From Stutzerimonas stutzeri (GTDB lineage Bacteria > Pseudomonadota > Gammaproteobacteria > Pseudomonadales > Pseudomonadaceae): a DNA stretch of 64,000 nucleotides. Every line of letters begins with the position of its first letter. The first letter of the stretch is position 1. Shown here one piece after another: positions 26,612 through 40,925 of this stretch. Location: NCBI RefSeq assembly GCF_024448895.1, contig NZ_JAMOIC010000007.1:124001-188000 (forward strand), in the 5' to 3' direction. Made by a program: the position numbers and the translations under genes. Under the pieces are notes generated by a model. It had not been told where the DNA came from. It made no database searches and saw only the letters and a program-made list of their open reading frames with translations.

Positions 26612-26765
26612 GTCGCGTCTCCCATGAATTCAGCGCCGTATGCTAGAGCCAGGCTGCGCGTCGGGCAACTGGCGTTGAAGTGCCGGGCCGCCGCATCTCG
26701 CGTGCTGAAACGCAACAACCAGAACTTCAGCCTGGATGATCAACCGAGAGTTCCCCAGGGCGCGG

Positions 26766-27386
26766 TCAGTTGACGGGTGTCAGGCACTCCGGCGCGTCCA
26801 GCTTGGGGTCATTCACGAATGTCGCCAGCGGGCGCTCACGCAGCACCGGCTGCGGTGCATTCAGCAACGACTGCAGTGTTTCCACCGGAGTTTGCGGGTC
26901 GAGCCAGGCGGCCATGGCAGCCTGGTCCAGCATCAGCGGCCTTCGCTGATTTGCAGCTGAACGCGTAACCACTGCCGCACTGAGGTAGGTACGGCCCTCC
27001 ACCGGGTAGGCTTCCCAGATCGCAGCGAAATACATCAGCGAGTCTTCCGCCGTCATCCAGTAGGGACGCTTGCGCGCTGTGCCGCGCCATTCGTAGAAGC
27101 CATTGGCCGGCAACGCGCCTCGGCGCAGGCGAAAAGCGTCACGAAACATCGGTTGCTCGGCCAGCGTTTCGGCACGGGCCTGGGCGGGCGTTCTGGTGAA
27201 ATCAGCGAGCCAGGGGGGAGTCAGCCCCCAGCGCACGTCGCTCAGCTGCAGCTCCTGCTCGACTTGTCGGAGCATCAGCACCGTCGCACCCGGCGCCAGA
27301 CTCCAGTGAGGTTGTTGATCGGCAGGGAAACCGGGCAGAGCGGCGAAGGTGGGACTCCAACGGAACAGGGCATAACGGCCACACAT
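26766..27386 (-). CDS. SRAP-family protein (YedK/HMCES-like), divergent active site
   Basis: A 206-residue member of the SOS-response-associated peptidase family, whose proteins cross-link abasic sites in single-stranded DNA through Cys2. The start at 27386 yields MCGRYALF, so the nucleophilic Cys2 would be exposed after Met removal. WSLAPGATVLML, WGLTPPWL and NGFYEWRG (Glu) match. However, the position of Asn in E. coli YedK NARVET is Gln here (QARAET), and the segment bearing the catalytic His (DIHDRRPLVL in YedK) is shortened to AANQRRPLML, so the His is missing. It may be a DNA-binding or altered-activity branch of the family. Confidence 0.85.
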   Translation of the reverse strand: MCGRYALFRWSPTFAALPGFPADQQPHWSLAPGATVLMLRQVEQELQLSDVRWGLTPPWLADFTRTPAQARAETLAEQPMFRDAFRLRRGALPANGFYEWRGTARKRPYWMTAEDSLMYFAAIWEAYPVEGRTYLSAAVVTRSAANQRRPLMLDQAAMAAWLDPQTPVETLQSLLNAPQPVLRERPLATFVNDPKLDAPECLTPVN

Positions 27387-37719: not shown

Positions 37720-38670
37720 TCAAGGACGGGTCAGAAACGTCTTGACGGCCTCGGTGACTCGCGCCGGGTCTTCTTCCTGCGGCACGTGCCCGAGGTCGTC
37801 AAAAATGACCACCTGACTACCGGCAATGTCCTGTTCGAAACGGCGTGCATTGTGCGGCGGGATAAGCCCGTCGCGACCGCCCCAGATGATCAGCGTTGGC
37901 GTCTGAATCGATGCAATCCGACCGGAATTATCGACGGCTGGTACCTGCTTGAAGCGCTCACGAAGCGCCTCGCGGTTACCTTCGCGCAACGTCAGTTCGT
38001 AGTAACGATCGACCAGATCGGGCGTTACCCTGTCAGGATCACCGTAAACATTGCGGGTGCTGGACTCCACCAGCCGACGCGGCAAGATGTTGGCCATCAA
38101 AGGCGCCAGGCCCGGAATGGCCGCCAGCTTGAAACCGATAGGCACGGAAGTCGATTGACGCGGGTAGCCTGCTGCGTCGATCAGCACCAGCTGCGCCACC
38201 CGCTGCGGTTGGTCCAGCGCCATTTCCCAGGCCAGCTGACCACCAAAGCTGTTGCCGACCAGCACCGTGCGCCCGACATCCAGACGGTCGAGCACTGCCG
38301 ATAGAAACTCGACGTAATGGGTCATGCGGTAGTTGCCGTCAGGAAAGGGACCGGTGAGGCCGAACCCTGGCAGATCGAGACTGATGACCCTCCGCTGCTG
38401 GCGCAACTCAGCAACCATGGCTTCCCAGGTATGCAGGCTTGCCGAGGTGCCGTGCAGCAGTACCAGTGGAACGGGATCGTCACGCCTGCCTTCGTCGCGG
38501 ACGTGGACTTGCATGCCGGCAATCTCGATGAACCTTGACGGCTCCGGCGCCCACCGCTCGGTGAGACTTTCAACGGGCCGTGGCGGAGCCCAGCTGATCG
38601 TTACAAGCACTGCAACGGCAATAACCAGCAGCGCCGCGATGGCGAGCAGGAGTTTCATTAAGGTCTTCAC
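37720..38670 (-). CDS. Alpha/beta hydrolase, membrane-anchored
   Basis: A protein of about 316 residues. A hydrophobic N-terminus (LMKLLLAIAALLVIAVAVLVTISW) suggests an inner-membrane anchor or uncleaved signal. Fold elements are VLLHGTSASLHTWE (oxyanion region), nucleophile Ser in LVGNSFGGQLAWEMAL, Asp in LIIWGGRDGLIPP and His in DDLGHVPQEEDPARV. Substrate unknown, an esterase or lipase-like activity being likely. The GTG start at 38670 has AAGGA with 8-base spacing; an ATG four codons in (38658) is the alternative. Confidence 0.82.
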   Translation of the reverse strand: MKTLMKLLLAIAALLVIAVAVLVTISWAPPRPVESLTERWAPEPSRFIEIAGMQVHVRDEGRRDDPVPLVLLHGTSASLHTWEAMVAELRQQRRVISLDLPGFGLTGPFPDGNYRMTHYVEFLSAVLDRLDVGRTVLVGNSFGGQLAWEMALDQPQRVAQLVLIDAAGYPRQSTSVPIGFKLAAIPGLAPLMANILPRRLVESSTRNVYGDPDRVTPDLVDRYYELTLREGNREALRERFKQVPAVDNSGRIASIQTPTLIIWGGRDGLIPPHNARRFEQDIAGSQVVIFDDLGHVPQEEDPARVTEAVKTFLTRP

Positions 38671-38802
38671 GGCCTGGATCCTTGATTTAGCGAGTGGCAG
38701 CGCCAGATTGAGACAGGTTCTCTGTCGCGGCAAAACCATTCACCACTTGAATTGCCCCTGATGGCAGGGTGATGTTGTATGCAGAACGGCGTTGGTCACT
38801 AA

Positions 38803-39090
38803 TTGATCAACATCCCACAAGCCACTGCGGCAGCGGCCTGGCGCTTCGTTTCCCCACGTTATCCACAGACCACCACACAGATATCTTGGACAAGTTACAT
38901 GCAGCGAAGACGGCTTCGCTCGTTCCTCGAGCGGAGAAGATATCCCCAGAAAAACAGCGAGTTATAGAGCAAGCTGACATTCTGATCAATATTTGAACAA
39001 CCTTAGCAGAGCCCCGGTGCTTGTGGCCTGCAGACAGTCATGAATAGCTTATCCACAGCACCGTGCACAGCTAATGGGTATAACTATGAC
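38803..39090. repeat. DnaA-box-containing array, left copy
   Basis: This is the main content of the gap between the hydrolase and the LOG gene (38671-39316). In order: TTGATCAA (38803-38810), perfect DnaA box TTATCCACA (38859-38867), TGATCAATATTTGAACA (38983-38999), perfect DnaA box TTATCCACA (39049-39057) and GGGTATAACT (39076-39085). The stretch is noticeably richer in A/T than the genes around it. The same order is found on the other side of the LOG gene. The rest of the gap (39091-39316) shows only the LOG gene ribosome site. Confidence 0.7.
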
Positions 39091-39316
39091 GGATCGACTG
39101 TCGATGCTATGTGAAGAGCTTCGAGCCCTCTGTTCGGGGGGGTCGCTTAGCTTAGTAACTGACCAACCAACGTAGAGCCGCGTGCGAACCCGACATAGGC
39201 AGTATTGGCCGATTAGACTGGGCTCAAGCCAAGGTCTCCCAGCCGAACACAGCTAATGCTTGGTCATCATTCCCCGCAGCGCTACGCTTCCATCCCCGTT
39301 ACAGATGGAGAGGATG

Positions 39317-39904
39317 ATGACCCTGACTTCGATATGCGTCTTTTGCGGCGCTAGTGCCGGCCTCGACCCGGCTTATACACAAGCCGCCAAGACGCTCGGC
39401 CAGACGCTGGCCGAGAACGGCGTTCGACTTGTCTATGGTGGCGGCGCGGTAGGTCTCATGGGGGTCGTTGCCGATGCAGCCATGGCGGCGGGCGGCGAGG
39501 TCATCGGGGTCATTCCGCAGAGCCTCAAAGACGCCGAGGTGGGTCACTCCGGGCTTACGCGTCTCGAAGTGGTCGACGGCATGCACGCGCGCAAGGCGCG
39601 AATGGCTGAGCTGTCGGACGCATTCATTGCCCTCCCCGGCGGCCTGGGTACCTTGGAGGAGCTGTTCGAGGTATGGACCTGGGGCCAGCTTGGCTACCAC
39701 CAAAAGCCTCTCGGATTGCTCGACGTCAACCGCTTCTACAGCAAGCTCAGCCACTTTCTCGATCATCTGGTAGAAGAAGGCTTCGTCCGCTTACCACACC
39801 GCGCCATGCTTCAGCGCAGCGATAGCGCATCGGAGCTGTTGCAGCTGCTCAATCAGTGGCAGCCCAGCGGCGAAATACGCTGGAGTGGTCAAAGCAACGG
39901 ATAG
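39317..39904 (+). CDS. LOG-family protein (TIGR00730; YvdD-like)
   Basis: A 195-residue Rossmann-fold protein, [60 protein letters not shown], with the LOG signature [38 protein letters not shown] (Arg, PGGxGTxxE). Many members release cytokinin-type bases from nucleoside 5'-monophosphates; in bacteria they act as nucleotide 5'-monophosphate phosphoribohydrolases. Three ATGs are close; the one at 39317 has GGAG at the best distance (6 bases). Flanked on both sides by DnaA-box arrays, which may affect its expression. Confidence 0.87.
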
Positions 39905-39938
39905 GCCTTCGAAGTAGTCCGATGCGCACACTCGCACA

Positions 39939-40240
39939 TTGATCAAAAACTGCACATTCGAGGCCAGGGCAGGCGCAGCGCAGCTCCACGCCCGCCCACC
40001 AGCTGTTATCCACAGGGCCTTCCACAGAGACCGTGGATAACATATGACTCTGCCATACAACGCCTGAAAAATTAGCTGTTATCGGTTGTAAGGCAGCGCT
40101 AAGTATGCTCTTCCGATGTGCCAAGAAATATTGAACAGCATTTGATCAGCAGCCTGGAATGTAAGCTGCGCGAGGCTTGCAGATGAAAGCCCCTATCTTA
40201 TCCACAGATTGACCCACATAAATCCGGGATAACTCAACGG
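39939..40240. repeat. DnaA-box-containing array, right copy
   Basis: This is the main content of the gap between the LOG and DUF2726 genes (39905-40421). In order: TTGATCAA (39939-39946), perfect DnaA box TTATCCACA (40006-40014), a one-mismatch box on the opposite strand CGTGGATAA (40032-40040), AATATTGAACA with TTTGATCA (about 40128-40149), perfect DnaA box TTATCCACA (40198-40206) and CGGGATAACT (40225-40234). Order and spacing follow the left copy. From 40241 to 40421 I see nothing further. Confidence 0.7.
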
Positions 40241-40421
40241 CCGTCTGAACATCTGTTGCTTCCGATAGGACACATAGATGTTTACAGGGGAGTTAGCGAA
40301 CTCTCCCGCTCTGGACGGGCTCAAACTTCCTATAAAGCAATCAGCGGACGCGCGGAGTTCTCATGTCAGTTCAATACCCGGTCACCCCCGGCTTGTCGAA
40401 GGCCGCCGGAACAATCGCGCA

Positions 40422-40925
40422 ATGATGGCTTTTCTAGGGTTGGTCTTAGCCGCATTCATCTGCTTTTCGCTGGTTTTCTTCGTGAAACAGCGCCAATACA
40501 ACCACCCAGCGCTGCGCATGCCGTACCAGTTAAAAAAACCTTTGTTCGAGCCTGCTGAACGCAACCTATTGGGGCTCTTGCAACAGGCGGTGGGTAACGA
40601 ATACCGGATTCTCAGTAAAGTGAGGCTCGCCGACGTCATTGAGGTCACTGCCATTCCCCGGCGAGCCCCTTGGTATAGAGCACACAATCGGATCTCCGCG
40701 GCCCGTATCGATTTCCTACTCTGCCATCCGGACACACTTGAGCCAGTCTGCGCTATCGAGATGGAGCCAGCGACAGAAGCCAATGCCTTCCTCGACGAGT
40801 TGTGCAACACGGTGGGCCTGCCGCTGGTGCGCCTGAGCCCGGAACGTGCTCGAGCTTATGACGAGGTGTGCGCAGACATCGAACAAGCTCTGGCGAACCA
40901 CTCTCCAGCCGAACCACCCGTCTAG
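40422..40925 (+). CDS. DUF2726 domain protein with N-terminal membrane anchor
   Basis: A protein of about 167 residues. One N-terminal membrane segment (MAFLGLVLAAFICFSLVFFV) is followed by the DUF2726 domain: KPLFEPAERNLLGLLQQAVGNEYRILSKVRLADVIEV and ARIDFLLCHPDTLEPVCAIEMEP. The Asp...Glu-x-Glu arrangement resembles PD-(D/E)xK nuclease-like cores, but catalysis is unproven for this family. The start is one of two adjacent ATGs (40422/40425); the longer frame to 40278 runs into the A/T-rich intergenic region. Its position after a DnaA-box array is notable. Confidence 0.8.
   Translation: MMAFLGLVLAAFICFSLVFFVKQRQYNHPALRMPYQLKKPLFEPAERNLLGLLQQAVGNEYRILSKVRLADVIEVTAIPRRAPWYRAHNRISAARIDFLLCHPDTLEPVCAIEMEPATEANAFLDELCNTVGLPLVRLSPERARAYDEVCADIEQALANHSPAEPPV

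Follow-up and report, generated by a model that had tools for sequence, protein, structure and literature searches.

The closest described systems are the DnaA-reactivating sequences (DARS) of Escherichia coli, DARS1 and DARS2, and beside them the datA locus. A head-to-head pair of DnaA boxes, I and II, is characteristic of DARS and essential; sequences like DARS1 and DARS2 are, according to earlier work cited in the same place, conserved across many proteobacteria (available text of PMC10380432). The flank of DARS1 enhances ADP release in vitro, its role in vivo being described as not determined, and minimal datA, whose locus is given by the same source, includes a site for IHF (available text of PMC5742627). 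These systems are compared here with a locus in a stretch of 64,000 nucleotides from Stutzerimonas stutzeri (contig NZ_JAMOIC010000007.1, positions 124,001 to 188,000 of the forward strand), the whole of which is called the window. The locus (window 38787-40239) consists of one module in four copies, of which two precede and two follow a gene of the LOG family, and every module comprises a Fis-consensus site, a dyad position and a triad of DnaA boxes. DARS is the closest match to these modules, a reading which an earlier sequence-only reading of the window had not named. With a probability of roughly 60%, the array is a set of four DARS-type DnaA control modules that happen to surround a LOG gene. 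The module itself is best read as a multi-copy, Fis-associated DARS-type element that would reactivate DnaA and that probably also binds up DnaA.

The perfect DnaA box TTATCCACA was found four times in the window with both strands scanned (38859, 39049, 40006 and 40198), always on the + strand and twice on either side of LOG, while dinucleotide shuffles of the window contain 0.12 such boxes on average and 1 at most. Repeat finding identified a 36-base stretch in four copies with spacings of 190, 957 and 192 bp. The register is common to all four modules: a Fis-consensus 15-mer at -65, the arms of a 31-bp dyad position at -45 to -36 and -24 to -15, and DnaA boxes at 0 (+), +12 (+) and +26 (-). 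The geometry of the triad is a (+) box, a 3-bp gap, a (+) box, a 5-bp gap and a (-) box, expressed as the pattern TTATCCACA N8 CACA N7 KGGATAA. The distance from the start of the Fis site to the perfect box is 65 bp in the four modules, and the dyad is clear in modules 1 and 2 only.

The sequence-only reading had described two collinear motif arrays flanking LOG, like a diverged duplication. The motifs lie where it had placed them, and the pairing of module 1 with 3 and of module 2 with 4 is present, but this is only half of the pattern, which consists of four copies of one module and which six genomes without LOG carry as a single run. Its GGG(T)ATAACT motif is the inverted third box of the triad. 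The unequal distances that it gave for the first interval (56 and 67 bp) arise because its TTGATCAA anchors are opposite halves of a Fis site, the one at 38803 being the right half of Fis site 1 and the one at 39939 the left half of Fis site 3; Anr/Fnr, LexA, parS and matS sites, in the form we take them to have, were also considered for TTGATCAA and set aside. The diverged duplication of one intergenic region was dropped, there being no similarity above background beyond the motifs: a comparison over 21 four-module genomes gives, away from the motifs, identities of 34.8% for modules 1 and 3 and 35.4% for modules 2 and 4, against a background of 32.6% (standard deviation 7.3) for modules of different positions in different genomes. 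The further suggestion of co-selected cis elements of one DnaA-responsive system appears to be right, order and spacing being kept across genera.

The relationship with DARS was established with a sequence-only model (R1) built from 84 modules, all of them from Pseudomonadaceae and none from enterobacteria, and with a second model of the upstream part only (R2); the E-values of both are rough. In the window R1 identifies exactly the four modules with 58.7-66.9 bits, all four being training rows, and nothing else at E<=1. The E. coli sequences were read from MG1655, DARS1 presumably lying in the bioD-uvrB gap. In 22 kb of E. coli the two best places of R1 are DARS1, with 28.0 bits (E 3.9e-8) in an ungapped alignment over 88 positions (model 28-115), and then the DARS2 core, with 15.4 bits (E 3.1e-4). 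The best scores elsewhere were 5.9 bits at datA (E 0.3), 9.2 at E. coli oriC, 5.1 in 98 kb of unrelated E. coli DNA and at most 12.4 in the oriC regions of pseudomonads. The DARS2 core was placed at 1136-1170 of the E. coli stretch L061 via the deletion primers printed in PMC4585315, and the second place of R1 is the published core because the 35 bases between the deletion-primer arms equal the triad exactly.

In the module register DARS1 reads TAATACACA-3-TTATCCACA-5-AGTGGATAA, and the 35-base triad of the DARS2 core reads TTCTTCACA-3-CTATCCACA-5-GGTGAATAA. The head-to-head arrangement of boxes I and II is present in the modules, where 5 bp separate the middle box from the inverted one that follows, just as they do in DARS1 and DARS2. 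Box III adjoins box II in the same orientation, and the gap between the two measures 3 bp throughout (modules, DARS1 and DARS2 core). Along with the R1 scores on both sites, which relate the modules in sequence to a known DARS, the likeness reaches into the flank of DARS1, where GCAAGCC and GCTTGC stand with the 19-bp offset seen in the pseudomonad dyad (L062 5103-5190, minus strand) and 6 of 10 pairs match in register, against 0-5 at 20 slid registers. At the dyad position of DARS2 the pairs in register are 4 of 10. The third-best E. coli place of R1 (13.0 bits, with a 12-base deletion) is an inverted pair, TTATCCACA-5-CTGGGATAA, in the DARS2 region (L061 1448-1483, minus strand), approximately 300 bp from the core.

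The anatomy is maintained across the genus, whose genomes are not independent of each other. Among 99 modules called in 27 genus genomes by similarity to the triad pattern, with up to four mismatches allowed, GGATAA is exact at +29 in 84 and CACA is present at +17 in 93; the mean box matches (of 8) are 7.69 for the first box, 5.27 for the middle one and 6.29 for the inverted one, random sites giving 1.80. The Fis consensus GNNYRN5YRNNC lies within -72 to -55 in 96 of these modules and exactly at -65 in 91, as compared with a mean of 6.6 and a maximum of 14 in composition shuffles and with a background rate of 0.6% per position in these loci. The form with an all-A/T core was identified in 68 of the 99 (0.2 in shuffles). 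In other genera of the family (20 loci with 44 modules, up to two mismatches) the Fis consensus is at -67 to -63 in 33 modules. A Fis orthologue, 58% identical, is encoded in the genome of the window, and Fis matches were found in the 10 genomes searched. The dyad of the spacer, with the consensus GCTGCAAGCC-N11-GGCCTGCAGC, pairs at 4.32 of 10 positions in register in the genus modules, where 20 slid registers give 2.21-3.28, and at 4.75 in the 44 from other genera, where they give 2.30-3.11. The best inverted repeat of each spacer barely exceeds shuffles (5.22 vs 4.62), and the dyad is therefore claimed as a family average and not as a stable hairpin. Two other explanations were rejected: a rho-independent terminator, because the A/T run, as we read it, switches strand between modules, and a small RNA, an Rfam scan of 38600-40500 yielding two matches, both far under the gathering scores.

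The coordinates are collected in Table 1. By Pfam, the array neighbours in the window are genes for an alpha/beta hydrolase, LOG and DUF2726, the last (40278-40925) directly after module 4. Relatives of the DUF2726 gene adjoin the array in most of the compared genus stretches, with exceptions such as L086. Two of the six listed modules outside the array form a tandem pair resembling that in relatives.

Table 1. Features of the module array (window coordinates) and further modules of the same genome (contig coordinates)
Feature	Position	Strand	Basis or remark
Module 1, whole	38787..38898	+	R1 66.7 bits (training row); common register
Fis-consensus 15-mer, module 1, GGTCACTAATTGATC	38794..38808	+	consensus GNNYRN5YRNNC at -65
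Dyad position, module 1	38814..38844; arms 38814-38823, 38835-38844	.	register; dyad statistic
DnaA triad, module 1	38859..38893	+	boxes 38859 (+), 38871 (+, degenerate), 38885 (-)
Module 2, whole	38979..39089	+	R1 66.9 bits (training row)
Fis-consensus 15-mer, module 2, GATCAATATTTGAAC	38984..38998	+	register
Dyad position, module 2	39004..39034	.	register; dyad statistic
DnaA triad, module 2	39049..39083	+	boxes 39049 (+), 39061 (+), 39075 (-)
LOG-family gene	39317..39904	+	Pfam Lysine_decarbox PF03641, SLOG cluster PF18306; divides the array 2+2
Module 3, whole	39935..40043	+	R1 59.4 bits (training row)
Fis-consensus 15-mer, module 3, GATCAAAAACTGCAC	39941..39955	+	register
Dyad position, module 3, arms poorly matched	39961..39991	.	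register; dyad statistic
DnaA triad, module 3	40006..40040	+	boxes 40006 (+), 40018 (+), 40032 (-); exact triad-pattern match
Module 4, whole	40129..40239	+	R1 58.7 bits (training row)
Fis-consensus 15-mer, module 4, GAACAGCATTTGATC	40133..40147	+	register
Dyad position, module 4, arms poorly matched	40153..40183	.	register; dyad statistic
DnaA triad, module 4	40198..40232	+	boxes 40198 (+), 40210 (+), 40224 (-); exact triad-pattern match
Six listed R1 matches outside the array, window's genome (G000)	C19:66125-66231, 66339-66447; C6:57028-57138; C15:40933-41039; C10:25186-25294, 26679-26790		R1

Matches of R1 (E<=0.01) were identified in 119 of 119 genomes of the family, covering 19 of 19 genera, with 2 to at least 30 per genome, up to 30 candidates having been scored in each. 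A deeper search covered 12 genomes: the nine of the genus had 9-13 matches apiece, the two of genus g22 had 23 and 24, and the single one of g25 had 33; the genome of the window has 11, seven of them outside the array. The best 110 of 163 matches were placed in 11 genomes whose dnaA shares a long contig with them (with an approximate length for one of the genomes): 97 fell in the origin-proximal half of the arm, as did 41 of the 51 clusters into which they merge, with a binomial P of 1.5e-5 that is too small given the relatedness of the genomes. The array stands at 0.435-0.508 of the arm from dnaA in the 7 genus genomes having both on one long contig (7/7), and a further module pair is found at 0.31-0.42 in the same 7, on the opposite arm in 6; in G017 the second member of this pair is in the R1 match list, outside the 110 placed. 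Dense groups were seen in G139, with eight listed modules within 1.2 kb (C1 6007333-6008548) about 49 kb from dnaA and ten listed modules within 7.3 kb (C1 445480-452771) on the other arm.

These numbers bear on titration, the main rival and one of the options raised by the sequence-only reading, where the modules would be a DnaA sponge delaying initiation until enough DnaA is made, Fis and the dyad merely modulating the loading. The high copy number (the array alone has four strong boxes, the origin-proximal half dozens), the origin-proximal bias and the eight-module group of G139 are in line with it, and an accumulation of DnaA boxes towards the origin is called favourable for titration in E. 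coli by a 2025 study (available text of PMC12371093). However, titration needs strong boxes only, and the weak middle box, the inverted box at 5 bp, the dyad and the Fis site at 65 bp are also conserved, so that a specific complex is called for beyond titration; the triad, moreover, shares the geometry of both E. coli DARS cores. Titration is kept as a rival, weaker here than the DARS reading and unlikely as the whole explanation, and it may act together with reactivation.

The array is conserved in the genus with or without LOG. The exact triad pattern was identified in 23 of 25 genus genomes, the window's own included, and at this locus only; it was found in none of 13 genomes from other families of the order, and a reversed control pattern gave 0 matches in the same search. 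A close LOG orthologue is present in 19 of the 25, and the array in 17 of these 19 and in all six LOG-less genomes, from which it follows that the array is independent of LOG. The LOG-less genomes have 3 or 4 modules in one run, with gaps of 151-329 bp, next to relatives of the genes that neighbour the array in the window (in L088 on a single side), and in LOG-bearing genomes with four modules 927-1005 bp separate modules 2 and 3. With one mismatch allowed the triad pattern extends to 88 of 148 family genomes and 12 of 19 genera, and in other genera the modules sit mostly in other gene neighbourhoods (20 loci). One genome of another genus (G047) has two modules flanked by relatives of orf340 and of the small gene that precedes mqo, and no LOG was found in the stretch read around them. 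Twenty-eight stretches of the named collection contain a pair of exact modules at a distance of 172-202 bp: 21 are labelled Stutzerimonas, 5 Pseudomonas, one a gammaproteobacterial metagenome-assembled genome and one a Flavobacteriales metagenome-assembled genome. The contig of the latter (L168), which has a tandem module pair, is possibly a misbinned gammaproteobacterial one.

Local transcription control, with DnaA and Fis regulating LOG or a neighbour gene, is improbable on this distribution. Modules 1 and 2 do lie upstream of LOG, as do the only two modules called in G163 and G130, and a LOG relative (70%) stands again between module groups in L065 and L066, two genomes of genus g28 with a neighbourhood unlike that of the window. 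Nevertheless, modules 3 and 4 are downstream of LOG, the array persists in 6 of 6 LOG-less genomes, and the same modules are found beside other genes in other genera.

Beyond the family, the exact triad with CACAG was identified in 10 of 370 genomes of the class, two of them of the genus. The other eight loci belong to six families, and six of them, from five families, have the Fis consensus at -65 to -67, where 1.1% is expected for each (P approximately 5e-11 if the loci are independent). Since the Fis consensus precedes the triad in other families, the combination of a Fis site with a DARS-type triad predates Pseudomonadaceae. On these eight triad-chosen loci R2 matched in register in 4 at E<=2 (L123 0.016, L122 0.03, L120 0.16 and L117 1.2), the best hit in L120 falling at the same place but on the opposite strand; for loci picked with R1, a choice which biases the result, R2 matched in register in 7 of 11 at E<0.09. 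R1 itself reached E<=1e-3 in 86 of 115 class genomes, mostly with 1-3 matches each, and in 62 of 110 genomes of the phylum, many of them outside the class.

A related site was identified next to flagellar genes. The strict pattern GTTATCCACAGN6KGGATAA occurs at least once in 51 of 56 genus genomes, and some of the occurrences are the first module of the array. Ten loci were examined, and in eight of them the pattern belongs to a flagellar-gene/DUF1232 site that lies at 0.59-0.78 of the arm and has the form CTGTTCACA-3-TTATCCACA-5-TGTGGATAA or a near variant; the remaining two, in the window's own genome and at a second site of G003, have other surroundings. The genome of the window has two strict sites 1.5 kb apart on contig C10, and the strict pattern did not find the flagellar-gene site at that place in it. 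R2 gave a match adjoining the site at E<0.002 in three of six flagellar-site loci. The triad geometry is that of the modules, whereas the first box is weak, the middle and inverted boxes are strong and there is one site per locus. Gene names follow Pfam for ten proteins; the flg, ComEA, YhiN, urt, ure, glpQ, HDAC, YigZ, FKBP and ankyrin labels are presumed from the look of the translations.

Several observations weigh against the DARS reading. DARS2 needs its IHF sites (IBS1-2), whereas the IHF consensus WATCAANNNNTTR is absent from 98 of the 99 genus modules and present in 1 (-130 to +80 scanned). One of the two boxes of the essential head-to-head pair, the middle one, is degenerate, averaging 5.3 of 8 as compared with 8 in DARS1, which counts the more because the middle box of DARS2 is itself 7 of 8. 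Neither E. coli core has the Fis consensus at -65, and R2 scores low in register on E. coli DARS1 (7.7 bits, E 0.2), ranking two other E. coli places higher, the best with 10.9 bits (E 0.019) and out of register. The copy number much exceeds that of E. coli, for which two DARS sites are named, and would fit titration too. The array is missing from two LOG-bearing genus genomes, G008 (L090) and G009 (L089), the second of which has nine R1 matches elsewhere, including three module pairs spaced 113-214 bp. Outside the class the R1 matches are often the triad end alone, some being near full length; the range of the triad itself therefore exceeds the class, and the R1 counts outside the family are not clean module counts. 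On the other side, four closely related genomes carry, as the first module of the array, a form with the strong middle box of DARS1, and this links the array modules with the canonical core.

The remaining alternatives fare poorly. Inactivation of the datA kind (datA-dependent DnaA-ATP hydrolysis), in which the modules would stimulate ATP hydrolysis instead of ADP release, is very improbable: datA is likewise a DnaA-box cluster outside oriC and one family genome has a module cluster near dnaA, but the module model fails to match datA, and the IHF site of minimal datA (PMC5742627, as above) has a consensus counterpart in 1 of 99 modules. Even harder to credit is that the modules are remnants of a mobile or REP-like repeat family carrying DnaA boxes by descent; this would fit their dispersed, multi-copy occurrence, but modules of one array share motif positions only, with background identity outside them. 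Least credible is a secondary or cryptic replication origin, in line with the origin-like element of the sequence-only reading, for oriC has DnaA boxes too, but the oriC regions searched stay at or below 12.4 bits with R1 and contain no triad within two mismatches, and copy number and dispersal also disfavour it.

For the DARS reading the following mechanism is proposed. DnaA would bind the high-affinity first box and then be delivered to the two weaker neighbours, where the inverted box would face the middle one head to head across 5 bp. This pair would release ADP from DnaA, as published for E. coli (available text of PMC10380432, PMC5742627 and PMC8682772), and apo-DnaA would reload with ATP. 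Fis, 65 bp upstream on a fixed helix face, may bend or brace the complex, whereupon DnaA would fill the weak middle and inverted boxes, and Fis abundance would tie the module to growth, with activity mainly in fast growth. A separate protein may use the dyad between the Fis site and the triad. The fourfold repeat at mid-arm would raise the output, and the copy number of the array would change as the fork passes.

On a larger scale, and more tentatively, Pseudomonadaceae could time replication by distributed, Fis-gated, multi-copy DnaA control: up to tens of Fis-dyad-DnaA modules, mostly origin-proximal and including the mid-arm four-module array, would do the work that E. coli splits among DARS1, DARS2 and datA, with a separate protein reading the dyad, which the poorly explained DARS1 flank also contains. 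The dyad is a concrete candidate within that flank. The array may help to time the replication of the pseudomonad chromosome, and its exact, conserved sites are offered for deletion and footprinting; with so many copies, titration and reactivation are separable by single-box mutation. That five further gammaproteobacterial families have the Fis consensus some 65 bp ahead of the triad points to a Fis control of DARS-type sites that is older, and more widespread, than the case of DARS2. The titles and abstract openings of the literature searched report no DARS-type sites or such arrays in pseudomonads. The earlier work on proteobacterial DARS-like sequences is presumably the 2009 DARS paper and may include pseudomonads. 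The composite module, the arrays and the copy number are put forward as new; DARS-like sites outside enterics were already known.

Of the three E. coli systems, datA resembles the array as an intergenic DnaA-box cluster outside oriC and differs from the modules in its IHF dependence, the lack of an R1 match (5.9 bits) and the near absence of the IHF consensus from them. DARS2 shares with the modules the geometry of the core triad and a mid-arm position (about 0.41 of the arm, close to that of the array). According to the available text of the papers it has Fis sites in its regulatory part, which its activity requires; the putative counterpart in the modules is the Fis consensus at -65. DARS2 is unlike them in that its nearest upstream Fis consensus is at -125, and its locus, upstream of mutH, is not that of the array. 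DARS1 is a single site with a strong middle box (8/8), no Fis consensus at -65 and other genomic neighbours; like the modules, it has three boxes, two + and one -, with 3-bp and 5-bp gaps, and an upstream dyad at the same offset.

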